DNA of 64,000 nucleotides from Flavimaricola marinus (GTDB lineage: Bacteria; Pseudomonadota; Alphaproteobacteria; Rhodobacterales; Rhodobacteraceae), in NCBI RefSeq assembly GCF_900184895.1, contig NZ_FXZK01000001.1:1054001-1118000 (forward strand), read 5' to 3'. Of the stretch, positions 1,060 to 19,937 are shown piece after piece; positions within the stretch are counted from its first letter, which is position 1, and every line of letters starts with the position of its first letter. The notes under the pieces were generated by a model. The model had not been told where the DNA came from, made no database searches, and saw only the letters and a program-made list of their open reading frames with translations. The translations under genes were made by a program, and so were the position numbers.

Positions 1060-1938
1060 TCAGGGCTTGGATAGGAAAGCGCTCTCTTCGATCAGGTCCA
1101 GCAGATCATTCAGCGACTGGTCGACGGTCTTGCTTGACGTATCAAGCTGGGCCTCGGCTTGGGCGTATAGGCTCTCGCGGCTGGCCAGAAGGCTGCGCAG
1201 CTGGCTCATCGCCTCGGGCACACCCGCCATCGGGCGCTCGTCCCCTTGGGCGCGGACGCGGTTCATGTGCTCCATCGGCGTCGCCCTGAGCCAGACGGTG
1301 TGACAGGTGTCGAGCAAGGTGCTGAACGTCCGCGGTTCGGCCACGATCCCGCCCGCAACGGCAAGGACCATACGGTCGTGCTCTGCGGTCACGGCCTCCA
1401 AAGCATCAGCCTCCAGCTTGCGGTATCCGTCAGCACCGTAAAGGCCCATGATCTCGGCAATGGGCATCCCGCCAATCGCCTCGATCTCCTTGTTCAATTC
1501 CACGAACGGCATATCGAGCACCCCGGCCGCAGCGCGACCAAGGGTCGACTTGCCCGCACCGCGCAACCCGATCAGGCAGACACGCTGTGCGCGGGAATGC
1601 GTCGGCGGGATCGGACTCAACTGGCGCAGCACACGGGCCTGTGTCGCCTCGTCGGCCGAGCGGAAAAGCTCGGCCACCTTGATGACGTCGGACGTGCGGG
1701 GATCGTCCTCAGCCACCAACCATTCGATGCGCATCCTAAGAGCACCGGCGATGCGGTGGAGCAAGGCAATCGAAATATTGCCGTCGCCGCCCTCCAACTG
1801 CGCCAGATAGCGGGGCGAAACGCCGGAAAGCTCCGACAATTGACGGCGAGGCATACCCATCTGGGTCCGGGCGATGCGCACACGCTCACCAACCTGCTGG
1901 ATCAAGGGGTCGATCGCTGTATCAGGGGCTTTGGTCAT
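1060..1938 (-). CDS. boxR: BoxR: benzoyl-CoA-responsive HTH/shikimate-kinase-like regulator
   Basis: This 292-aa protein has an N-terminal XRE-type helix-turn-helix (about residues 15-75, GMPRRQLSELSGVSPRYLAQLE). It is fused to a shikimate-kinase-like domain with the P-loop GLRGAGKST at about residues 124-132. This architecture is the hallmark of the BzdR/BoxR family, in which the kinase-like domain senses benzoyl-CoA rather than acting as a kinase. The start is placed at ATG 1938 (MTKAP); a longer reading from 2013 only translates an operator-like palindrome. A perfect TATAAT sits 6 bp upstream of this ATG, so boxR may have its own near-leaderless promoter besides readthrough from the box operon. 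Confidence 0.92.
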   Translation of the reverse strand: MTKAPDTAIDPLIQQVGERVRIARTQMGMPRRQLSELSGVSPRYLAQLEGGDGNISIALLHRIAGALRMRIEWLVAEDDPRTSDVIKVAELFRSADEATQARVLRQLSPIPPTHSRAQRVCLIGLRGAGKSTLGRAAAGVLDMPFVELNKEIEAIGGMPIAEIMGLYGADGYRKLEADALEAVTAEHDRMVLAVAGGIVAEPRTFSTLLDTCHTVWLRATPMEHMNRVRAQGDERPMAGVPEAMSQLRSLLASRESLYAQAEAQLDTSSKTVDQSLNDLLDLIEESAFLSKP

Positions 1939-1942
1939 AGCG

Positions 1943-1954
1943 GCATTATATTGC
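1943..1954 (-). promoter_or_regulatory. GCA-N6-TGC operator overlapping the boxR -10 box
   Basis: The sequence is GCATTATATTGC, a GCA...TGC dyad around TATA. Read on the minus strand it contains the perfect -10 hexamer TATAAT at 1950-1945, six bases before the boxR ATG. The same 12-mer recurs exactly at the boxC promoter. BzdR/BoxR proteins are known to recognise TGCA-type repeats, so this is inferred to be an autoregulatory BoxR site. Confidence 0.6.
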
Positions 1955-1993
1955 ACAGAGGACTTGGAGCGAACAGCACTTTCCGGTGGCATA

Positions 1994-2434
1994 TCAGGCA
2001 CCTGCCTGCGCAATCAGCGGCTCGATCAGGGCGCGGATATCCTCTGGCGGGCGCTGTTTCCTGAACTGATCGGCAACCGTGAAAACGTTGGTGAATTTCC
2101 CGGTGAAGCCAAGCTTGCCATCCTGATAGGCATCGACCTGAAAGGTGATCGACGTCTCGCCCAGCCGGATGGGCCAGACATAGCACCGCAGCACATGGCG
2201 CGGGGTGACGGGGCGCTTGAAATCCATCTCGATGCGGACAAACGGCGTGCCCATGTTGCGGTCCAGTTCCATCTGAAACCAGCCATCGCCGCCAAGATGA
2301 CGCTCCCACCATGCGTTGATCGCATCGAGGGCAAACCACGGAAGACGACCGGTATAGGCGATCTTGGCCGGGTCACAGTCACCCCATGTGACGCGAATAT
2401 CGTGGGCAAAGGCAGAATCGGGCGGCGATCCCAT
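1994..2434 (-). CDS. 4-hydroxybenzoyl-CoA thioesterase family protein (hotdog fold)
   Basis: This 146-aa protein is of the length expected for a single-hotdog acyl-CoA thioesterase. The N-terminal VTWGDCDPAKIAYTG segment matches the catalytic-Asp motif of the 4-hydroxybenzoyl-CoA thioesterase family. It starts 1 bp after the boxA stop and precedes boxR, so it is co-transcribed with the box genes. The likely role is hydrolysis of benzoyl-CoA or stalled ring-opened CoA esters to release trapped CoA. The exact substrate cannot be read from the sequence. Confidence 0.85.
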   Translation of the reverse strand: MGSPPDSAFAHDIRVTWGDCDPAKIAYTGRLPWFALDAINAWWERHLGGDGWFQMELDRNMGTPFVRIEMDFKRPVTPRHVLRCYVWPIRLGETSITFQVDAYQDGKLGFTGKFTNVFTVADQFRKQRPPEDIRALIEPLIAQAGA

Positions 2435-2435
2435 C

Positions 2436-3617
2436 TCAGTAGGTTTCCACGTGATAGCGGCCGTCCTCGCGCATCACGTCACGCATGGCGATCCACTGCT
2501 CGCCGATGCTCTCGGCGATGGTGGTAAAGGCGCGCTCCACGCCTTCCTCCATGCCGCGCAGACCACAGATGTAGATATGGGTCTTGGGATCGGCCAGCAG
2601 TTCGGCGACCTTCTCTTCCTCGGCAATAAGACGGTCCTGCACGTATTCCTTCTCGCCCTCGCGCGAATAGACCAAATGCTGTTCCAGCAGGCTCTTGGGC
2701 ACCTTCGACAGGGGGCCGAAATAGGGCAGGCTCTTCTTGGTGCGGGCGCCAAAGAACATCGTCATGCCGCCCGAGGGGCCGTTCAGGGTGCGCTGGCGGC
2801 GCATGGTAAAGGCGCGCATCGGGGCAGAGCCGGTGCCGGTGCAGATCATCAGCAGCTTGGCCTCCGCATCGGCCGGCAGCAGGAAGGTCGCGCCAAACGG
2901 GCCGGTCACTTGCACTTCGGCACCCGTCGGCAGATCGCAAAGGTAGTTCGAGCATAGACCACCGGCCTCACGTTTGACGGTCAGCGACAGGTTGTTGAAG
3001 CCGGGGCGCTCGCCGTCACGCGGGCTGGAGACAGAGTAGAGGCGGGGCAAATGCGGCTTGCCCTCTGCATCTGTGCCGGGCGGTATGATGCCCACCGATT
3101 GGCCCTCGAGCACCGGAAACGGCAGGTTGCCCAGATCAAGGATGATGTGGCGAACGTCGTGTTCCGGGTCATCGGTCAGGGGGTAGTTGCCCGTGATCTT
3201 GGCGGTCGCGGGCTTGCCCAGATTATACATGTTGATCGAGGGCTTGGCCGCAGTGGCCGGAGCCTTGGCCTTGCCGCCGGCACCCTTGTGAGCCTCGGCG
3301 AGCAACGCGGCCATCGCATCGTCCAGAGCCTCCAGCCCCGTGGCCGCTTCGTCCTGACCAAGCTCCTCCTGTTCGGGCAATTCCTCCCAGCTGTATTGGG
3401 CCTCCAGCGAATAGGGCTCCACGACGACCCGCCATTCGTCAATCGAGCCCGTCGGACAGACCGGAATGCAATCCATGCAGAAGTTGCAGCTATCGGCATT
3501 CACCACCACGTTGTTGTCGTCGTGCTCGATGGCACCGACAGGGCAGGTCATCTCGCAGGTGTAGCAGCGGATACAGATCTCGGGATCAATGAGGTGCTGT
3601 TTGACGGGCTTGTTCAT
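2436..3617 (-). CDS. boxA: BoxA: NADPH-dependent reductase of benzoyl-CoA 2,3-epoxidase
   Basis: This 393-aa flavoprotein passes electrons from NADPH to BoxB. An N-terminal bacterial-type ferredoxin module carries two [4Fe-4S] motifs: C15, C18, C21, C25-Pro and C44, C47, C50, C54-Pro. An acidic linker follows. A ferredoxin-NADP reductase module comes next, with PRLYSVSS for FAD binding, GTGSAPMRAF for nucleotide binding and a C-terminal aromatic Tyr. The domain order and length match BoxA of Azoarcus-type pathways. Its start lies 1 bp downstream of the small Cys-rich gene stop, which suggests translational coupling. Confidence 0.95.
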   Translation of the reverse strand: MNKPVKQHLIDPEICIRCYTCEMTCPVGAIEHDDNNVVVNADSCNFCMDCIPVCPTGSIDEWRVVVEPYSLEAQYSWEELPEQEELGQDEAATGLEALDDAMAALLAEAHKGAGGKAKAPATAAKPSINMYNLGKPATAKITGNYPLTDDPEHDVRHIILDLGNLPFPVLEGQSVGIIPPGTDAEGKPHLPRLYSVSSPRDGERPGFNNLSLTVKREAGGLCSNYLCDLPTGAEVQVTGPFGATFLLPADAEAKLLMICTGTGSAPMRAFTMRRQRTLNGPSGGMTMFFGARTKKSLPYFGPLSKVPKSLLEQHLVYSREGEKEYVQDRLIAEEEKVAELLADPKTHIYICGLRGMEEGVERAFTTIAESIGEQWIAMRDVMREDGRYHVETY

Positions 3618-3618
3618 G

Positions 3619-3786
3619 TCAGGCCTTCTTGGACAGGATGATGTCGGGCAGGGTCAGTGCTTCGATCAGGGCGGCGCACAATCCGCGACAGTCCGAACAG
3701 CCTACGCAGGGGCCCTGCAATTGGGCAATGTCTTTGGCGGCTGCGGTGGTGCGCGGGGCAAATCCGATTTTGCGGTCGATCATCAT
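3619..3786 (-). CDS. 55-aa Cys-rich putative Fe-S protein between boxB and boxA
   Basis: This small gene starts at ATG 3786 with a good AGGAG ribosome site about 8 bp upstream and stops 1 bp before boxA. It encodes 55 residues with four cysteines, C27, C30, C33 and C37, in the order CVGCSDCRGLC. The spacing CX2CX2CX3C is that of a ferredoxin cluster ligand set, but the usual proline after the fourth Cys is replaced by Ala. No second motif and no signal peptide are visible. I do not recognise a named family. Tight placement between the oxygenase and its reductase suggests an accessory electron-transfer or cluster-delivery role, which is inference. Confidence 0.75.
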   Translation of the reverse strand: MMIDRKIGFAPRTTAAAKDIAQLQGPCVGCSDCRGLCAALIEALTLPDIILSKKA

Positions 3787-3854: not shown

Positions 3855-5306
3855 TCATGCCATGTGAAGCTTGACGTATTCGAAGTCGCCCGGCTTGTTG
3901 TCGATGCCCACCTTGGGTGGCGCAATCCAGCTGGCGTATTTGCCGGGCTCGAAGCACGGCACCATCAACGATTGGATAAAGGCACCGTCTTCCTTGGTGG
4001 GAAGCCAGTCCTTGACGCCTTTGTCCCATGCGTCCTGGGTGATGATCACCCCCTCGGGATTGGCACGAATGGCCGAGAACACACCGATCTGACGGTGAAA
4101 CGCCTCGTCGGGCAGCTTCATCTCGAATTCGACACCGGCCTTGGCGATCTGCTTGTTCCAGCGGCCAAGGCCACCGGCAGCATCACGAACATAGTCGTCG
4201 CGCAGGCGCATGTTGATGGCGGTCAGCGCGGGCACTTCCTGCGCCACGATCTTGCCGTCCACAATCGTGCGAACGACATAGGTGTCGTCCTTGAGCTTGT
4301 GGTCATCGTCGATCCGCATCTCCATGTAGCGGCCCTTGATGCCCGAGTTGAAGGCGTTGGCGGCGTTAGTCGAAACCTCCTGACCAAACAGATCCAGCGA
4401 CAGCGAATAGTGCAGGTTCAGCTTCTTCTGGATGGTCGGCAGGTCGATGACGCCCAGATCGCGGATCTTGTCGATATCATAGGGGTCGGTGATGCCCGCC
4501 TTGTTCATCGCCTCGCAGGTCGCCTGAATCACCCGGCCCACACCAGTCTCGCCCACAAACATGTGGTGGGCCTCCTCGGTGAGCATAAAGCGGCAAGTGC
4601 GGCTGAGCGGATCAAAGCCCGACTGGGCGAGGCTCTCAAGCTGCATCTTGCCGTCACGGTCGGTAAAGTAGGTGAACATGAAGAACGACAGCCAATCCGG
4701 CGTTTCCTCATTGAACGCCCCCAGCATCCGAGGCGCTTCTTCGGACCCGGACGAGCGGATCAGCAGATCGTCGGCTTCTTCGCGGCCATCCTTGCCGAAG
4801 TATTTCTGAAGCAGATAGACCATCGCCCACAGGTGGCGGCCCTCCTCGACATTCACCTGAAACAGGTTTCGCATGTCATAGAGGCTCGGCGCGGTCAGGC
4901 CGAGGAAGCGTTGCTGCTCGACCGACCCCGGCTCGGTGTCGCCCTGAATGACGATCAACCGCTTGAGCATGTTTCGATATTCGCCCGGCACTTCCTGCCA
5001 CGCCAATTCACCGGCATGTTCACCCATCGGGATGCGGCGATCCTCGACCTGCGGGGCGAGCAAGACGCCCCAGCGGTATTCCGGCATCTTCACATAGTCG
5101 AACTTGGCCCAACCCTTGGGGTCCACCGAAACGGCGGTCCGCAGATACACCATGCTCTCCTGAAAGTTCTGCGGAATCAGATCGTTCCACCAGTTGATAT
5201 AGCCGGGGTGCCACTTCTCCAGCGCCTTGAGCACCTTCTTGTCCTGCGCGAGGCCCACATTGTTGGGGATCTGGGTGTCATAGCTGACGTTGATGAGGTC
5301 TAGCAT
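3855..5306 (-). CDS. boxB: BoxB: benzoyl-CoA 2,3-epoxidase (di-iron oxygenase)
   Basis: This 483-aa enzyme inserts one oxygen atom of O2 into benzoyl-CoA to give 2,3-epoxybenzoyl-CoA, with electrons from BoxA. The protein shows a ferritin-like di-iron ligand set: E125, E155-x-x-H158, D216, E245-x-x-H248. As I recall them, the Azoarcus BoxB iron ligands fall five residues earlier, so the whole set is conserved at a constant offset. Length is typical. The gene lies 24 bp downstream of boxC and clearly belongs to the same operon. Confidence 0.97.
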   Translation of the reverse strand: MLDLINVSYDTQIPNNVGLAQDKKVLKALEKWHPGYINWWNDLIPQNFQESMVYLRTAVSVDPKGWAKFDYVKMPEYRWGVLLAPQVEDRRIPMGEHAGELAWQEVPGEYRNMLKRLIVIQGDTEPGSVEQQRFLGLTAPSLYDMRNLFQVNVEEGRHLWAMVYLLQKYFGKDGREEADDLLIRSSGSEEAPRMLGAFNEETPDWLSFFMFTYFTDRDGKMQLESLAQSGFDPLSRTCRFMLTEEAHHMFVGETGVGRVIQATCEAMNKAGITDPYDIDKIRDLGVIDLPTIQKKLNLHYSLSLDLFGQEVSTNAANAFNSGIKGRYMEMRIDDDHKLKDDTYVVRTIVDGKIVAQEVPALTAINMRLRDDYVRDAAGGLGRWNKQIAKAGVEFEMKLPDEAFHRQIGVFSAIRANPEGVIITQDAWDKGVKDWLPTKEDGAFIQSLMVPCFEPGKYASWIAPPKVGIDNKPGDFEYVKLHMA

Positions 5307-5330: not shown

Positions 5331-6992
5331 TCAGACGCGCTCCATGTTGTAATCGCCGCGCACGCCCGTGCCGTAGCGCTGCAAAGCACCCGTCTCGCCC
5401 ACAGCGTTGGGGCGGTTGAAAATCCAGTTCTGCCAGGCGGTCAGACGGCCAAAGATGCGGGTCTCCATCGTTTCCGGGCCAGCAAAGCGCAGGTTGGCTT
5501 CCATCCCGGTCATCGCGTCGGGGCTGAACGAGGCACGCTCTTCGGCAAAGATGCGTATCTCGTCCTCCCAGTCGATGTCGTCGAGGATCATGGTCACAAG
5601 ACCCAACTCGTCGGCCTCCTCGGCCTCCAGCGCCTCTCCGATCTTGGCCTTGGCGGCCTCCACCGCTTCGGGCTCGCCCAGAAACCGGGTCTCCAGACGG
5701 GTGATGCCATTGCCCATCGGATAGGGGCCGAAATTCGCGTCCGTCAGAGTGACCGCAGCCATATGGCGATTGTCGCCGTCAAACTCGTCTTCCATCATAT
5801 AGCTGCGGTCCACGGCAAACAGCAGCTCGGCCAGCACGCCTACAAAGCAAGAGCCATGTTCCACCAGCGCCATCATCGAGCGCGATGTCACATCCACGCG
5901 CTTGAGAATACGCTTCCAATACTGGCGCACCTCATTGGCCAGCCAGTGATCGGCATTGTCGGCGAGCAGCGCCTCGTGGGCGGCGAACAACTCCGGGTCA
6001 CCCTGCGTGCGGAACGACCACAGACCTGCCTCCATCTCGTTGAGTCGCAGGTGCAGAATGGCATCGTCCAACTCACGGGCGAGGCGGAGCATATAGGCCT
6101 GATCGCCCTGCGCTTCGAACGCTGCCATATCGGCAGGCGCATCGGCATCCGGGCCGCTCAGCGTGATGGTGGCGGTGCGCTTGGCGCGATCCACGACCAC
6201 TTCGACGAGCGAGTAGGACAGCGATCCATCCTCCGCCACCGTCTTGGCGAGCGGTCCGAGGGTGATACCCTTGGACACATCAACCTTGGGCGAGGCTGCG
6301 GCAAACTCGCGGGCACGTTTCTGCACCACATCGTCAAACTTGGAATTCGGGATCACCTCATCGACCAGACGCCACTCCTTGGCGCGCTTGCCCTTCACGC
6401 CCTCCTCGATCGAGCAGAAAATATCGGCACGGTCGCGGCGCACCTTGCGCTTGTCGGTCACGCGGGTCAGTCCGCCGGTGCCGGGCAGCACAGCAAGCAG
6501 CGGCACCTCCGGCAGCGCCACCGACGACGTGCTGTCATCCGTCAGCATGATATGGTTGCAGGCCAGCGCCAGCTCATAGCCACCCCCGGCACATGCGCCC
6601 TTCACGGCCGCGATATACTTCTGCCCACTGTCCGCTTCGGCAGCCTCAAAGGTATTGCGGGTCTCGTTGGTAAACTTGCAGAAGTTGACCTTGTGACTAT
6701 GGGCAGCGCCGCCCAACATGCGAATGTTCGCCCCGGCGCAGAACACCCGGTCCTTGCCCGACTGCATGACCACGACCTTCACTTCGGGATGCTCAAAGCG
6801 CATCCGCTGGACCACGTCGGCCAATTCGATATCGACACCCAGATCATAGGAATTGAGCTTCAGCTGATAGCCATCGAACAGGCCACCGTCTTCGTCGACA
6901 TCCATGAACAGGTTGGCGACCGGGCCATCGTACTCCACGCGCCAGTGGCGATACTGATCGGGGCTGGTTTGAAAATCGATGACCTTTGCCAT
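5331..6992 (-). CDS. boxC: BoxC: 2,3-epoxybenzoyl-CoA dihydrolase
   Basis: This 553-aa crotonase-superfamily enzyme hydrolytically opens the epoxide ring and releases formate, giving 3,4-dehydroadipyl-CoA semialdehyde. The N-terminal half carries SGKDRVFCAGANIRML and GACAGGGYELALACN, the CoA-binding and oxyanion-hole signatures. The long extra C-terminal half distinguishes BoxC from ordinary 260-aa crotonases. The ATG at 6992 follows an AGGGA ribosome site. It is the first box gene after an intergenic stretch with a promoter and two operator-like palindromes. Confidence 0.97.
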   Translation of the reverse strand: MAKVIDFQTSPDQYRHWRVEYDGPVANLFMDVDEDGGLFDGYQLKLNSYDLGVDIELADVVQRMRFEHPEVKVVVMQSGKDRVFCAGANIRMLGGAAHSHKVNFCKFTNETRNTFEAAEADSGQKYIAAVKGACAGGGYELALACNHIMLTDDSTSSVALPEVPLLAVLPGTGGLTRVTDKRKVRRDRADIFCSIEEGVKGKRAKEWRLVDEVIPNSKFDDVVQKRAREFAAASPKVDVSKGITLGPLAKTVAEDGSLSYSLVEVVVDRAKRTATITLSGPDADAPADMAAFEAQGDQAYMLRLARELDDAILHLRLNEMEAGLWSFRTQGDPELFAAHEALLADNADHWLANEVRQYWKRILKRVDVTSRSMMALVEHGSCFVGVLAELLFAVDRSYMMEDEFDGDNRHMAAVTLTDANFGPYPMGNGITRLETRFLGEPEAVEAAKAKIGEALEAEEADELGLVTMILDDIDWEDEIRIFAEERASFSPDAMTGMEANLRFAGPETMETRIFGRLTAWQNWIFNRPNAVGETGALQRYGTGVRGDYNMERV

Positions 6993-7110: not shown

Positions 7111-7557
7111 TTACGCATTATATTGCAACTCACTTGACGTGCTCAACGCCAGAACCTCGACCCTCAACGCCGCCACATCGCAGCCCAGAACAACCTCTCC
7201 GCGCACCTCGTCCAAATGTGCCAAGGCAATCTGGCAAAGGCGCGTGGCGGCGCGCGGCTTGCCCATCCGCAGCTTCAACTGGGCGTTCGCCAACTGGATG
7301 ATCGCCTGCACAAAGGCACGCGGCTCCGAATTTGGCGGGCAGGCCATCCAGACCGGCTCCAACACCTCGTGGGCCTCCCAGAAATGACCAGACGCGCGAA
7401 ACGCCAAACCCGCCCGGAACGCCTCCGTCCGGGCAAGCTCCTTTGAGGACATACCCTCCCGGACCGAGGCGCGGATCGGATCAAAGGCGCCCTCAGTATG
7501 GCGGGCCGTATGACCGGGCACATAGGCATGTGACGGAAGGACCGGCGCATCGGTCAT
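7111..7557 (-). CDS. DUF309 family protein
   Basis: This 148-aa helical protein has the DUF309 signature. FWEAHEVLEPVW lies near residue 58 and is followed by FVQAIIQLANAQLKLRMGKP. The biochemical function of the family is unknown to me; the conserved Glu/His pairs suggest metal binding. Its start overlaps the upstream alpha/beta hydrolase gene by 4 bp (ATGA), so it is translated in the benzoate-ligase operon. Its last codons double as the boxC promoter-operator. A link to benzoate metabolism is inferred only from the operon. Confidence 0.85.
   Translation of the reverse strand: MTDAPVLPSHAYVPGHTARHTEGAFDPIRASVREGMSSKELARTEAFRAGLAFRASGHFWEAHEVLEPVWMACPPNSEPRAFVQAIIQLANAQLKLRMGKPRAATRLCQIALAHLDEVRGEVVLGCDVAALRVEVLALSTSSELQYNA
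7115..7146 (-). promoter_or_regulatory. boxC promoter with embedded operator, inside the 3' end of the DUF309 gene
   Basis: On the minus strand a -35 TTGAGC (7146-7141) is followed after 18 bp by a perfect -10 TATAAT (7122-7117). The -10 lies within GCATTATATTGC (7115-7126), identical to the boxR promoter palindrome. A second TGCAATA half-site lies 22 bp further downstream. The promoter overlaps the last codons of the DUF309 gene, whose C-terminal residues LQYNA are the operator read in frame. Confidence 0.65.
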
Positions 7558-8369
7558 GCGACCGCGATCTCCGGCGCATCAATGCGGATCAAACGGGTGG
7601 TGAACTCGGAAATCGCGGCCAAGACCTGATCGGGTTTCTCGGCGAACGGCGCATGGCCACAGCCCTCCAACTCCAGCCGATCCACCGGCGCATAGGACCG
7701 GTCTTCGACCTCGTCGATCTGCGCCATGGTGCCATAAGGATCATCCCGGCCCTGAATGACCAGCGTCGGGATGCGCAGGTAGTCGATGACATCCGCCACA
7801 TTCCACCCGGCAAAGTCTGGGTGCAGCCAGGCATCGTTCCAGCCGCGAAAGGTGGCCTCGGGATCGCGATGATACTTGGCCATCTTCCGCTTGAGATCGC
7901 CCGTCTCGAAATCCAAACGCGCCCGCTCGATTTCGGCAAGGCCCATCGGCTCGGTAAAGAAATGCGGCGCCATGAGAACAAGACCGCGAATGCGGGTATC
8001 CGACACGCTGCCCGCATAGATCGCCGCAATGGTGCCACCGTCGCTATGGCCCACCAGAACCGCCTTCTGCACGTCAAATGCGGCAAGGACCTGTGGCAGC
8101 ACATCCACCGCCTCGCGGGTCATGTAATCGAGCGGACGTGGCAGCTCCGCCGGGCCGGATTGACCATAGCCCGCGCGGGAATAGACCAACACGCCAAGCC
8201 CGGTCGCCTCGGCCAACCGTTGTGGAAAATCGCGCCACAGGGCCACGCAGCCCAAACCTTCGTGCAGCAGCACCAGCGTCAGCGCCTCGCTCGGATCAGG
8301 CCCATAACAGGCGTATTCCAAGGGAACACCGCCCGCCTCGACCACACCGCTGTCTGTCCAGAGTGTCAT
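7554..8369 (-). CDS. Alpha/beta-fold hydrolase
   Basis: This 271-aa alpha/beta hydrolase has the nucleophile elbow GHSDGG near residue 108, an HEGLG oxyanion segment near the N-terminus and a C-terminal GCGHAPFAEKP His region. No signal peptide is present, so it is cytoplasmic. It overlaps the downstream DUF309 gene and the upstream benzoate-CoA ligase gene by 4 bp each, giving tight translational coupling. A plausible role is hydrolysis of aromatic esters or of an enol-lactone/CoA intermediate. The substrate cannot be stated. Confidence 0.85.
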   Translation of the reverse strand: MTLWTDSGVVEAGGVPLEYACYGPDPSEALTLVLLHEGLGCVALWRDFPQRLAEATGLGVLVYSRAGYGQSGPAELPRPLDYMTREAVDVLPQVLAAFDVQKAVLVGHSDGGTIAAIYAGSVSDTRIRGLVLMAPHFFTEPMGLAEIERARLDFETGDLKRKMAKYHRDPEATFRGWNDAWLHPDFAGWNVADVIDYLRIPTLVIQGRDDPYGTMAQIDEVEDRSYAPVDRLELEGCGHAPFAEKPDQVLAAISEFTTRLIRIDAPEIAVA

Positions 8370-9901
8370 GCCGTCACCTCGCGCAATTTGAACCGTTGGA
8401 TCTTGCCCGTCGCGGTCTTTGGCAAATCATCGACCACCTCGATCCAACGAGGGTATTTCCATTTGCCGATCGCGGTCTTCACATGCTCCTTGATGCCATC
8501 AAGGGCATCGGCCCCCGCGCCGGACTTCAGCACAACAAAAGCCATCGGCTTTTCCAGCCCGTCGTCGTCGCGGCGGGCGACCACGGCGGCCTCCAGAACT
8601 GCCGGATGCGCGGCCAATGCCTGTTCCACCTCGAACGGGCTCAGCCAGATGCCGGAAACCTTGAACATATCGTCGGTGCGACCGCAGTAAATCAGGCGAC
8701 CACCCTCGCCGACTTCGTATTTGTCGCCCGTCCGGGTCCAGATGCCCTCGAACGTGGCGCGAGATTTGTCGCGTTGGTTCCAATAATCCGCCGCCGCCGA
8801 TCCACCACGGACCAGCAGTTCACCGACGCCACCGGGCGCGACCTCGGCTCCGTCCTCGTCGACGACACGGATGTCATAGCCGGGCACGGCCACCCCGGAA
8901 GTGCCGTATTGCACGTCGCCCGCACGGTTCGACAAGAAGATATGGAGCATCTCAGTCGAGCCGACGCCGTCCAGAATATCGACGCCCCAGATGTCCTTCC
9001 ACTTCCGGCCAATCTCGGCAGGCAGCGCCTCGCCTGCGGAAATGCAGGTGCGCAAGGGGGCATCGGGATGAGCGCCCTCGCTCTCCCACTTGTGAATCAT
9101 CGCAGCATAGAGGGTCGGCACGCCGCAATAGATCGTGGGCTTTTCGGCCGCCAAGACGTCCGACACGCTGTCCGGCGTCGGACGGCCGTCAAACAGAACC
9201 GCCGTCGCGCCGACAGACATCGGAAACGACATACCGTTGCCAAGGCCATAGGCAAAGAACAGCTTCGCCGCAGAGAACACCGTATCGCCCTCTGTCACGC
9301 CCAGCACCTGCGCGCCGTAGGTGTCGCAAGTCACCTGCAACGCCCCGTGGACATGGCGAACGCCCTTGGGCTGTCCTGTCGAGCCTGACGAATAGAGCCA
9401 GAACGCCACCTCGTCGGCGCAACAGGGCACCGTCCTGATCGGGTCGGCACCGGCGACAAAAGCTTCGATCTCGGTCGCGCCCTCGGCCTCTGCCCCGATC
9501 ACCACGACCTGACGGACAAGAGGGCAGTCGGCCAGCGCGGGCATCACCACCGGGATCATCTCTTTGCTGACAAAGGCGATGGAGGCGCGGCTGTCCTGCA
9601 ATATTGTCCGATACACGTCGGTCGACAGCAGCGTATTGAGCGGAATTGGCACCACACCGGCCTTGATCGCCCCCCAGAAAATCAGCGGAAATTCGATCTG
9701 ATCCAGCACGAACATCGCCGCACGCTCCTCGCGCTGGATGCCCGCCCGGTAGAACGCACCCGCCAATTGCGCGGCCCCCTCGGCCAATGCGCCATAGGTC
9801 AGGCTACGACGCTGTCCCGCGGCCTCGCGGAATGCGATCTTGTCGGCGCGCCCCTCCTCGACATGGCGGTCCACAAACCACAATGCAGCGTTTCCTGTCA
9901 T
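8366..9901 (-). CDS. Benzoate-CoA ligase
   Basis: This 511-aa adenylate-forming enzyme activates benzoate to benzoyl-CoA with ATP and CoA, the entry step of the box pathway. Core motifs are present: YSSGSTGQPKGVRHVHG (phosphate loop), CISAGEALP, GSTEMLHIFLSN, TRTGDKYEV, YCGRTDDMFKVSG and the C-terminal catalytic Lys in LPKTATGKIQRFKL. The start at 9901 has a strong GGAGGAG ribosome site; a longer in-frame reading upstream overlaps the DUF4863 gene and is rejected. It is called benzoate-specific because of the GSTEMLHIF region typical of Bcl/BadA enzymes and the box context. A substituted benzoate is possible. Confidence 0.92.
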   Translation of the reverse strand: MTGNAALWFVDRHVEEGRADKIAFREAAGQRRSLTYGALAEGAAQLAGAFYRAGIQREERAAMFVLDQIEFPLIFWGAIKAGVVPIPLNTLLSTDVYRTILQDSRASIAFVSKEMIPVVMPALADCPLVRQVVVIGAEAEGATEIEAFVAGADPIRTVPCCADEVAFWLYSSGSTGQPKGVRHVHGALQVTCDTYGAQVLGVTEGDTVFSAAKLFFAYGLGNGMSFPMSVGATAVLFDGRPTPDSVSDVLAAEKPTIYCGVPTLYAAMIHKWESEGAHPDAPLRTCISAGEALPAEIGRKWKDIWGVDILDGVGSTEMLHIFLSNRAGDVQYGTSGVAVPGYDIRVVDEDGAEVAPGGVGELLVRGGSAAADYWNQRDKSRATFEGIWTRTGDKYEVGEGGRLIYCGRTDDMFKVSGIWLSPFEVEQALAAHPAVLEAAVVARRDDDGLEKPMAFVVLKSGAGADALDGIKEHVKTAIGKWKYPRWIEVVDDLPKTATGKIQRFKLREVTA

Positions 9902-9926
9902 CTCACTTTCTCCTCCCAGAGCCAGC

Positions 9927-10394
9927 CTATCGGTTGGTGAATTCGATTGCCCCCTCCGGCAAAAGATACAGGACGTAAGCGTCGCCGCCCGCCACTGTCG
10001 GGTGATGGTGCGAACCAGGCGGATAGACATACCAGCCCGGCCCCCGGCCATCGAAAGTAGGGTCGCCCTCAATCGGCATCACCGCACCGATCTCGCCGTT
10101 GGGATGGATGTGGTGCGGCCCGATGAGGTTGTTCATCCGCACGACGTCGACGCTGAAACGGCCCGCGCCAGAGCCCGGCTTCAGGGCGCGGCCAAACTTG
10201 ATCCCGCCCTGTTCTCGGCCCATCAGCCAGCCTTCGCGCTCGCCCTTGGCGCAAAGCGCCGTCATCTCCTCGAAAAGCGGGCCGTCCTTTGGAAAGGTCG
10301 CGTTCAGATGATCGGCCATCTCTTGGCCGACCGGCAGATCCACAAGGCTCTCGGCCACTTGGTGCATCAATTCGGTGAAGCGTTCCTTTGACAT
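9927..10394 (-). CDS. DUF4863 (PnbB-like) cupin-fold protein
   Basis: This 155-aa protein is built around the metal-binding-type motifs GPHHIHPNGE (about residue 92) and PPGSHHHPTV (about residue 125), as in a cupin. It resembles the DUF4863 family. As I recall, 4-hydroxylaminobenzoate lyase (PnbB) belongs to that family, but nothing else for nitrobenzoate use is visible here. It is the first gene of the ligase operon, 25 bp upstream of the benzoate-CoA ligase, with a GGGAGG ribosome site. The role in benzoate degradation is unknown. Confidence 0.8.
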   Translation of the reverse strand: MSKERFTELMHQVAESLVDLPVGQEMADHLNATFPKDGPLFEEMTALCAKGEREGWLMGREQGGIKFGRALKPGSGAGRFSVDVVRMNNLIGPHHIHPNGEIGAVMPIEGDPTFDGRGPGWYVYPPGSHHHPTVAGGDAYVLYLLPEGAIEFTNR

Positions 10395-18896: not shown

Positions 18897-19937
18897 TTAG
18901 TTGGCGGCTTCGTATTCGGCCATCAGGGCACGGGCCTGATCGATCCGGGCCTGACCGTCGACGCCGAGCTCGGCCATGTCGGCGATCCAGGAGTCGTAGA
19001 TCGGCTGAACGAGCGGCAGCCAATCGGACTCGGCGGTTGCCGCATCGATGGTGATAATGTTGTTGCCAAGCTCGACAGCGACCTCACGGGCCGGGCCATC
19101 GGCATCCGCCTGCGTGCCACCGGCAAAGATCGAGAATTCCAGACCGGAATTGTCGTCGATCACCTGCTGCAGGTCAGCGGGCAGATTGTTGTAGGCGTCG
19201 TTGTTCATCGCCAGAACAAAAGTCAGGTTATACAGCGCCGGACCTTCGAACTCGGTGTGGTTCTCGACTAGCTCTGCCACGCGGAGCGAGGTGGTCACTT
19301 CCCACGGAATGGTGGTGCCGTCGATCACACCCTTGGACAGACCCTCGGACACCGCAGGCACAGGCATACCGACCGGGGTCGCACCGGCGAGCTCCAGAAG
19401 CTGGTTCACCAGACGCGAACCGCCACGGATCTTCATGCCTTCGAGATCGGCAGGCACTTCGACAGGATCCGACGTGTGGAACATGCCGGGGCCATGCACC
19501 CATGTGCCCAGAATATGCACGTCAGAGAATTCGTCCTGCATATGCTCTTCGTACATCTTCCAATAGGCGTAGGACGCAGCGCGGGCATCGCCCACCATGA
19601 ACGGCAGCTCGAATACCTCGGTAGAGGGGAAGCGGCCCGGCGTATAGCCGACGACCGTCCAGACGATGTCGGCCACGCCGTCGATCGCCTGGTCCATCAG
19701 CTCCGGCGGGGCACCACCCAACTGCATGGCGGGAAAGCGGTCGATCTTGATGCGGCCATCCGAATCGGCTTCGACAGCGTCGGCCCAGACGTCCAGAACC
19801 TGCACGGGCACATTGGCCTGCGCCGGCAGGAACTGGTGCAGCTTGAGCGTATATTCCTGAGCAAGAGCGCCCGTGGCCGCCATCGCTCCGACTGCGGCAC
19901 CAGCCATGGCGCACAGAATAGTTCTCCGATTGGTCAT
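18897..19937 (-). CDS. dctP: TRAP transporter periplasmic binding protein (DctP)
   Basis: This 346-aa protein has a signal peptide (cleavage after the ATGALA region near residue 26). The body reads as a DctP-type binding protein: YTLKLHQFLPAQ at the start, SDGRIKIDRFP, and a central MKIRGGSRLVNQLLELAGATPVG that includes the conserved Arg that binds the ligand carboxylate. It starts with a GGGAGG ribosome site and is the first gene of the TRAP operon. Confidence 0.93.
   Translation of the reverse strand: MTNRRTILCAMAGAAVGAMAATGALAQEYTLKLHQFLPAQANVPVQVLDVWADAVEADSDGRIKIDRFPAMQLGGAPPELMDQAIDGVADIVWTVVGYTPGRFPSTEVFELPFMVGDARAASYAYWKMYEEHMQDEFSDVHILGTWVHGPGMFHTSDPVEVPADLEGMKIRGGSRLVNQLLELAGATPVGMPVPAVSEGLSKGVIDGTTIPWEVTTSLRVAELVENHTEFEGPALYNLTFVLAMNNDAYNNLPADLQQVIDDNSGLEFSIFAGGTQADADGPAREVAVELGNNIITIDAATAESDWLPLVQPIYDSWIADMAELGVDGQARIDQARALMAEYEAAN

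Follow-up and report, generated by a model that had tools for sequence, protein, structure and literature searches.

Does the benzoyl-CoA 2,3-epoxidase of Flavimaricola marinus have a third component? In the parts of the published accounts drawn on here, the enzyme is described as BoxB reduced by BoxA and NADPH (PMC5489048) or as BoxB with its reductase BoxA (PMC10803450). In F. marinus, a short open reading frame (ORF) for a protein with four cysteines lies between boxB and boxA. A sequence-only reading of this DNA had suggested that the protein might be a further, possibly iron-sulfur-bearing component of BoxAB. Among the open-access papers found on box genes, flavodoxin and the cysteine motif, none mentions the four-cysteine protein in its title or the opening lines of its abstract, and the protein is apparently undescribed.

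Gene and operon context

The small gene and its neighbors (Table 1) lie in the window, that is, the whole 64,000-nucleotide stretch of F. marinus DNA that was analyzed. The sequence-only reading had placed the ORF correctly at positions 3619-3786 without naming a strand. The coding strand is minus: the product encoded from 3786 to 3619 is MMIDRKIGFAPRTTAAAKDIAQLQGPCVGCSDCRGLCAALIEALTLPDIILSKKA, and translation of the plus strand of this interval does not yield the 55-residue four-cysteine protein. The other local claims of that reading also hold. Its good ribosome site is an AGGAG ending 7 nucleotides upstream of the ATG. The gene indeed sits between boxB and boxA, beginning 68 bp after the boxB stop codon and ending in a TGA codon with the boxA ATG 1 bp downstream, and all three genes are codirectional. 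The four cysteines have ferredoxin spacing, with CVGCSDCRGLC corresponding to CX2CX2CX3C. The residue after the fourth cysteine (Cys4) is alanine, not proline.

Table 1. Features of the box cluster in the window
Feature	Position	Strand	Remarks
55-residue four-cysteine protein gene	3619..3786	-	CX2CX2CX3C at residues 27-37
boxB, diiron benzoyl-CoA 2,3-epoxidase subunit	3855..5306	-	TIGR03225, 891 bits (cut-off 499); directly 5' of small gene
boxA, reductase, two CX2CX2CX3CP motifs and FNR-like part	2436..3617	-	TIGR03224, 514 bits (cut-off 459); directly 3' of small gene
boxC, 2,3-epoxybenzoyl-CoA dihydrolase	5331..6992	-	TIGR03222, 984 bits (cut-off 712)
boxR-like regulator (HTH and shikimate-kinase-like)	1060..2013	-	
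Thioesterase-like protein of box operon	1994..2434	-	4HBT_2; recurs after boxA or flavodoxin at many loci
Benzoate-CoA ligase family protein	8366..10072	-	TIGR02262, over cut-off
DctP-type TRAP solute-binding protein, same cluster	18912..19865	-	

The cluster runs in the order boxR, thioesterase, boxA, small gene, boxB, boxC, a DUF309 protein, an alpha/beta hydrolase, benzoate-CoA ligase, more genes (one of them a second ligase) and a TRAP transporter. Box clusters often have TRAP genes at their left end, and in some genomes that lack boxB these genes are still beside the small gene. Many of the examined box clusters carry the gene for the DUF309 protein (7111-7557 in the window) flanked by the hydrolase gene and boxC, and in one boxB-less genome (G283) it adjoins the small gene.

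Distribution among box loci of Rhodobacteraceae

The earliest search of public genomes recovered the small gene from six relatives with 53-62% identity, in all six between boxB and boxA. boxB is present in 81 of 394 Rhodobacteraceae genomes, and the flank after boxB was read in 80 of these. The remaining genome (G361), whose contig is cut inside boxB, was left out; a profile search of this genome, which is 84% complete, gave no match to the small gene. One of the 80 flanks (locus L105) stops at the boxB stop codon. Comparison of the box loci of other Rhodobacteraceae, the check that the sequence-only reading had proposed, reveals a conserved small ORF: a four-cysteine frame directly follows boxB at 60 of the 80 loci. 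This recurrence at the same place, together with shuffling, rules out a chance ORF. With dinucleotide shuffling of the 237 bp between boxB and boxA, 7 of 20,000 shuffled sequences contain a coding-strand open stretch of at least 40 codons with CX2CX2CX3C.

boxA directly follows boxB, with or without the small gene in between, at 70 of the 80 loci. The small ORF is present at 53 of 55 loci where the boxB-boxA gap is at least 150 bp and at none of the 15 where the gap is short (2-116 bp). Thus, it is the small gene that accounts for the gap. Of the two long-gap exceptions, L059 is frame-broken, and L090 carries only a frame of comparable length whose cysteines are otherwise spaced and which was not counted. 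At 36 of the 53 loci with boxA next, the stop codon of the small ORF overlaps the boxA start as ATGA.

The full set comprises 68 proteins of 47-75 residues, made up of the 60 box-linked proteins and eight copies from loci without boxB. The box-linked ORFs were chosen by their four-cysteine pattern, so that counts of motif spacing over the 68 members describe spacing only, and the constancy of the cysteines is best judged from the figure of 53 in 55 long gaps. Alignment A2 holds 56 of the 60 box-linked proteins; two with TTG starts (L085 and L096) and two of the flavodoxin type (L092 and L097) were left out. The 55 other members of A2 share 22-65% identity with the window protein. The small ORF is a genuine conserved gene family of the box operon.

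Box loci that lack the small gene

Outside Rhodobacteraceae, no small ORF follows boxB at any of 85 loci from 85 genomes. This sample consists of 65 flanks read among 79 boxB genomes of the same class and 20 from a search of the phylum. Nor did a profile search give anything credible in 45 boxB genomes from other families (best E 0.005). Of the 80 loci read in Rhodobacteraceae, 20 have no intact ORF, and searches of their genomes gave no match in 19 and a frame-broken copy in G010. The boxC gene of G010 is likewise in two pieces, and its broken frame is possibly due to cluster decay or sequencing error.

The sequence-only reading had counted absence or frame breakage in close relatives against its proposal. 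This is what is seen in some of them, the gene being absent from G150 and broken in G010 and in the boxB-less genome G160; elsewhere it is not, and the intact ORFs keep their cysteines. In a tree of BoxB C-terminal sequences, the BoxB of the window is sister, on a starred branch, to that of G150 (L101), which lacks the small gene. The tree contains about 15 presence changes over 60 rows with the small gene, and the starred branches force at least 3. Because it was made from 165 C-terminal residues by a quick method, with 10 of 89 inner branches starred and 4 of 12 outgroup rows misplaced, this tree supports repeated loss of the small gene only in outline. The simplest history would be one origin in or near Rhodobacteraceae, then several losses.

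Small genes in genomes without boxB

At least 8 of 313 boxB-less Rhodobacteraceae genomes carry the small gene (profile search, E below 1e-10). In this search, the best 16 candidates per genome were scored, and matches at E 1e-4 to 0.01 were not counted as members. The gene is intact in seven genomes (G123, G405, G210, G256, G234, G349 and G283) and frame-broken in G160, and a search for boxA found it in none of the eight. A strict linkage to boxB, with BoxB as the only partner, was dropped once these copies turned up. A control search for boxC covered 253 Rhodobacteraceae genomes, of which 56 were positive, the same 56 that have boxB (lists compared by eye). None of the 197 boxB-less genomes has boxC, and at least 5 of these 197 keep the small gene (one broken).

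Gene order in box-bearing relatives is, with variations, FAH - DctPQM - ligase(s) - hydrolase - DUF309 - boxC - boxB - small gene - boxA - thioesterase - boxR - AlkZ/YcaQ-like - LacI-like, where labels come from Pfam on single examples and LacI was assigned by eye. The corresponding order is DctP/DctM - small gene - AlkZ-like - LacI in G123 and G210, FAH - small gene - AlkZ-like - LacI in G405, and small gene - AlkZ-like - LacI in G256. Genes on both flanks of the small gene have thus been lost and the small gene retained. One genus with five species holds all states: G1120 has a box cluster, G123 and G1119 (the latter genome 85% complete) have the small gene without boxB, and G1117 and G1118 have neither. 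The proximity to the TRAP transporter, which at first suggested a link, is accounted for by the gene order of box clusters; in 21 of 30 box genomes examined, the top match to the TRAP protein is no more than about 18 kb from boxB.

Two copies of the small gene have moved: L112 (G349) lies next to a tungstate-type transporter and L111 (G234) next to an HpaI-like aldolase, both neighbors being named by eye from their translations. G399 has a boxB - small gene - boxA locus and, elsewhere, a second copy (L115) in a paralogous cluster without boxB, in which a TRAP transporter, an SDR, a CoA ligase and a BoxR-like regulator accompany the small gene.

The small gene is thus neither present wherever BoxAB is, given the 85 outside loci, the 45 outside genomes and the 19 Rhodobacteraceae boxB genomes without it, nor absent where BoxAB is absent. 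A third component of BoxAB as such, which the sequence-only reading had suggested, is not supported, given these absences and the occurrence of the gene in genomes in which boxB and boxA were not detected. The small protein is not an obligate BoxAB subunit. The separability is two-way, with the enzyme found without the small gene and the small gene without the enzyme, and a role independent of BoxAB is likely.

Association with boxB and with boxA

boxA is not next to boxB at 10 loci, and at 7 of these the small gene still adjoins boxB (one other, L105, ends at the boxB stop). In five of the seven genomes, no boxA scores over the model cut-off: G406, G319, G257, G237 (75% complete) and G156, where boxA appears only as partial matches below the cut-off. 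G394 and G073 also have no boxA over the cut-off. L224 (G406) reads boxC - boxB - small gene - boxR, with no adjacent boxA or flavodoxin seen and no boxA in the genome.

At five loci (L221, L222, L223, L225 and L226, from G319, G156, G257, G394 and G073, respectively), a flavodoxin gene lies downstream of boxB. The arrangement is boxB - small gene - flavodoxin in G319, G156 and G257, and the small protein there has the spacing CX3CX2CX3C. In G394 and G073 flavodoxin directly follows boxB, so that the small gene is absent from 2 of the 5 boxB-flavodoxin loci. Flavodoxin was identified by Pfam Flavodoxin_1 at two of the five loci, one of them among the three with the small gene. Flavodoxin may have replaced BoxA as the electron donor of BoxB in these five genomes. 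Since some boxA-less loci keep it, the small gene is associated more closely with boxB than with boxA and can persist when the reductase changes. Staying with the oxygenase while the reductase changes is the behavior expected of a redox adaptor of BoxB.

Cysteine motif, family similarity and predicted structure

The spacing CX2CX2CX3C is found in 65 of the 68 members, and three have CX3CX2CX3C, which is not a ferredoxin spacing. L068, which has an extra cysteine in front, was counted with the former after inspection of its sequence (the automatic count gave 64 and 4). Exactly four cysteines are present in 61 of the 68 proteins and five in the other 7, and no chain has a second cluster motif. 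Proline follows Cys4 in 2 of 68 members. The sequence-only reading had taken the single motif and the missing proline of the window protein as arguments against an ordinary ferredoxin. Cys1 is mostly followed by Val, Ile or Leu and then Gly, as in PsaC. BoxA has two complete CX2CX2CX3CP motifs in 7 of 7 sequences examined.

When a profile of 56 members was compared with solved structures, the best match was PsaC, at both of its Fe-S motifs and over the motif region alone (E 8e-5). The window protein has no Pfam match at E 10, including Fer4, one NCBIfam match far below cut-off, and no match in PHROGs. Other members match Fer4_2 weakly (15 of 56, best E 0.0095); the best Fer4 model is Fer4_21 (E 5e-4), and weak matches to Fer4-type and other NCBIfam models reach E of about 1e-3 at best among 25 of the 33 matched families. 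The PsaC and Fer4_2 matches agree with the claim of ferredoxin-type cysteines in a conserved box-operon gene. A plasmid collection searched by tblastn at E 0.1 gave no match to the small protein.

The AlphaFold model of the lone chain, with clusters not modeled, is a helix-loop-helix of two helices and no strand (pLDDT 74.7, pTM 0.41). A fold search with this model gave 0 matches in the PDB and, elsewhere, 4 viral matches only, all with E above 4. An origin as a copy of the ferredoxin half of BoxA was rejected, because comparing the two profiles gave an alignment of just 14 columns (probability 3.8%).

The small protein resembles bacterial 2[4Fe-4S] ferredoxins and PsaC (Fer4 clan) in its cysteine spacing and in the hydrophobic residue and Gly after Cys1. 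In contrast to them, it has one motif instead of two, rarely has proline after Cys4, matches Fer4 models weakly and has a helical model. Many Rhodobacteraceae are aerobes. Semidoxins and protodoxin PD1, as presented in the part of a 2025 study drawn on here (PMC12648291), share with the small protein a short chain and a single [4Fe-4S]-type motif; unlike it, they have about 30 residues and a modeled beta-alpha-beta dimer. The same part of that study reports that designed half-ferredoxins ('semidoxins') dimerize and that natural semidoxins are rare, so far coming only from thermophilic anaerobes.

Selection on the coding sequence

A family-wide codon substitution analysis was uninformative (median pN/pS 0.71, with dN/dS above 1 in many closest pairs), because synonymous sites are saturated and GC-biased. 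Selection was judged from within-genus pairs only. In genus g317, two copies differ at 11 third positions and at only 4 residues (P 0.0012 versus a simulation without selection). All three pairs in genus g123 have fewer amino-acid changes than in the no-selection simulation. For G123-G1120 there are 10 residue changes versus about 18 expected (P 0.0004). The two other pairs have as few changes in 0 of 5,000 simulations; one of these, G123-G1119, has 19 residue differences versus about 32 expected, and both its members are boxB-less through a loss that is possibly shared.

The deletion in G123 left about 84 bp before the small gene and a short boxA stub after it, and these flanks, the stub and the gene match G1120 as one 302-bp match with 81% identity. 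Selection after loss of the box genes was not detected on the G123 branch (9 nonsynonymous, 4 synonymous and 8 unpolarized changes). Thus, the gene in G123 is possibly a young relic.

Possible functions of the small protein

The reading put forward here, tentatively, is that the small protein could be an accessory redox protein, specific to this lineage and probably of the [4Fe-4S] type, which docks on BoxB and improves the BoxAB system without being essential to it. It would be a cytosolic iron-sulfur protein of small size, whose four cysteines most likely bind a [4Fe-4S] cluster. Its gene, found only in Rhodobacteraceae, forms one operon with boxB and boxA, judging from its position and the stop-start overlap. 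Docked on BoxB, the protein would pass single electrons to the diiron site. It might do so as an extra step between the reductase and BoxB or, alternatively, in the rescue of oxidized or inactivated BoxB. The latter role would be analogous to that of YfaE, a [2Fe-2S] ferredoxin that serves the diiron subunit of ribonucleotide reductase and whose gene adjoins that of the diiron protein. YfaE is larger, and the likeness lies in the proposed job and the gene position. A second client is possible in some genomes, because the small gene outlives the box genes there.

What favors such an adaptor is a ferredoxin-type motif kept while the rest of the protein drifts (22-65% identity). Further points in its favor are the PsaC-like residues after Cys1, the ATGA overlap with boxA, the persistence beside boxB at 7 of the 10 loci where boxA is not next, and the few residue changes in g317. 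Several observations count against it. BoxA already has two full motifs, and boxB-boxA pairs do without the small gene at the 15 short-gap loci, as do all 85 outside loci. The gene is kept without boxB, three members have the variant spacing, and it is absent from the flavodoxin loci of G394 and G073. The AlphaFold model is of moderate quality and has no PDB match.

The main rival, which is somewhat unlikely, is an assembly or repair factor that delivers iron or an Fe-S cluster in the maturation of BoxA (two [4Fe-4S] clusters) or of the BoxB diiron site, with no need for electron transfer during turnover. The ATGA overlap with boxA at 36 of 53 loci would suit this role, and a helper backed by the general Isc/Suf systems would be dispensable in some boxB genomes, as is found; retention without BoxAB would point to other clients. 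However, the small gene stays with boxB in genomes without detected boxA, and neither Pfam nor 25 of the 33 matched NCBIfam families relate it to an Fe-S carrier or a protein of diiron assembly. The same overlap could instead belong to a translated leader that couples boxA translation to boxB, with an irrelevant peptide, and the 302-bp match of G123 to G1120, with its 9 nonsynonymous to 4 synonymous changes, would fit a relic. Either is very improbable, since the four cysteines are kept at 22-65% identity to the window protein, the gene is present where boxA is not next, and amino-acid changes fall below the no-selection expectation in the g123 pairs and in g317.

It is unlikely that the protein is a metal, redox or oxygen sensor that binds a cluster or zinc and tunes the aromatic-acid operon by acting on BoxR, the transporter or translation. 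The small gene does adjoin boxR at two loci (L224 and L115), and it lies beside a TRAP transporter in G123, G210 and G1119 and near one in G283 and at the second copy of G399. However, box-cluster gene order accounts for the TRAP proximity, the chain has 55 residues and one cysteine loop, and no DNA-binding fold is visible in the model. Decidedly unlikely is a homodimeric half-ferredoxin in which each of two [4Fe-4S] clusters would be bound by Cys1-3 from one chain and Cys4 from the other, a pair of chains thereby approximating one bacterial ferredoxin. The Cys4 of each ferredoxin motif is a ligand of the other cluster, and a lone conserved motif, complete in a short chain, would therefore call for a partner. 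Designed semidoxins do dimerize according to the part of PMC12648291 cited above, where the natural candidates nevertheless have about 30 residues and come from anaerobes. Also at odds with this pairing are the lack of proline after Cys4 in 66 of 68 members, a model that is helix-loop-helix and not beta-alpha-beta, and the mere 14 columns aligned with the ferredoxin part of BoxA.

Implications

That aerobic benzoate degraders possess a natural half-ferredoxin, a self-pairing single-motif protein with two [4Fe-4S] clusters that feeds a diiron oxygenase, is a long shot. If true, the protein would represent the ancestral half-ferredoxin in living form, outside the anaerobes known to have such proteins, and would be an adaptor letting BoxB use BoxA or flavodoxin. 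Flavodoxin in the place of BoxA at some loci raises the question of which donor supplies BoxB with electrons there. The two-way separability from BoxAB makes the role of the small gene testable. With a third gene conserved at 60 of 80 sampled Rhodobacteraceae loci, the activity, oxygen tolerance or reductase choice of the epoxidase may differ there.
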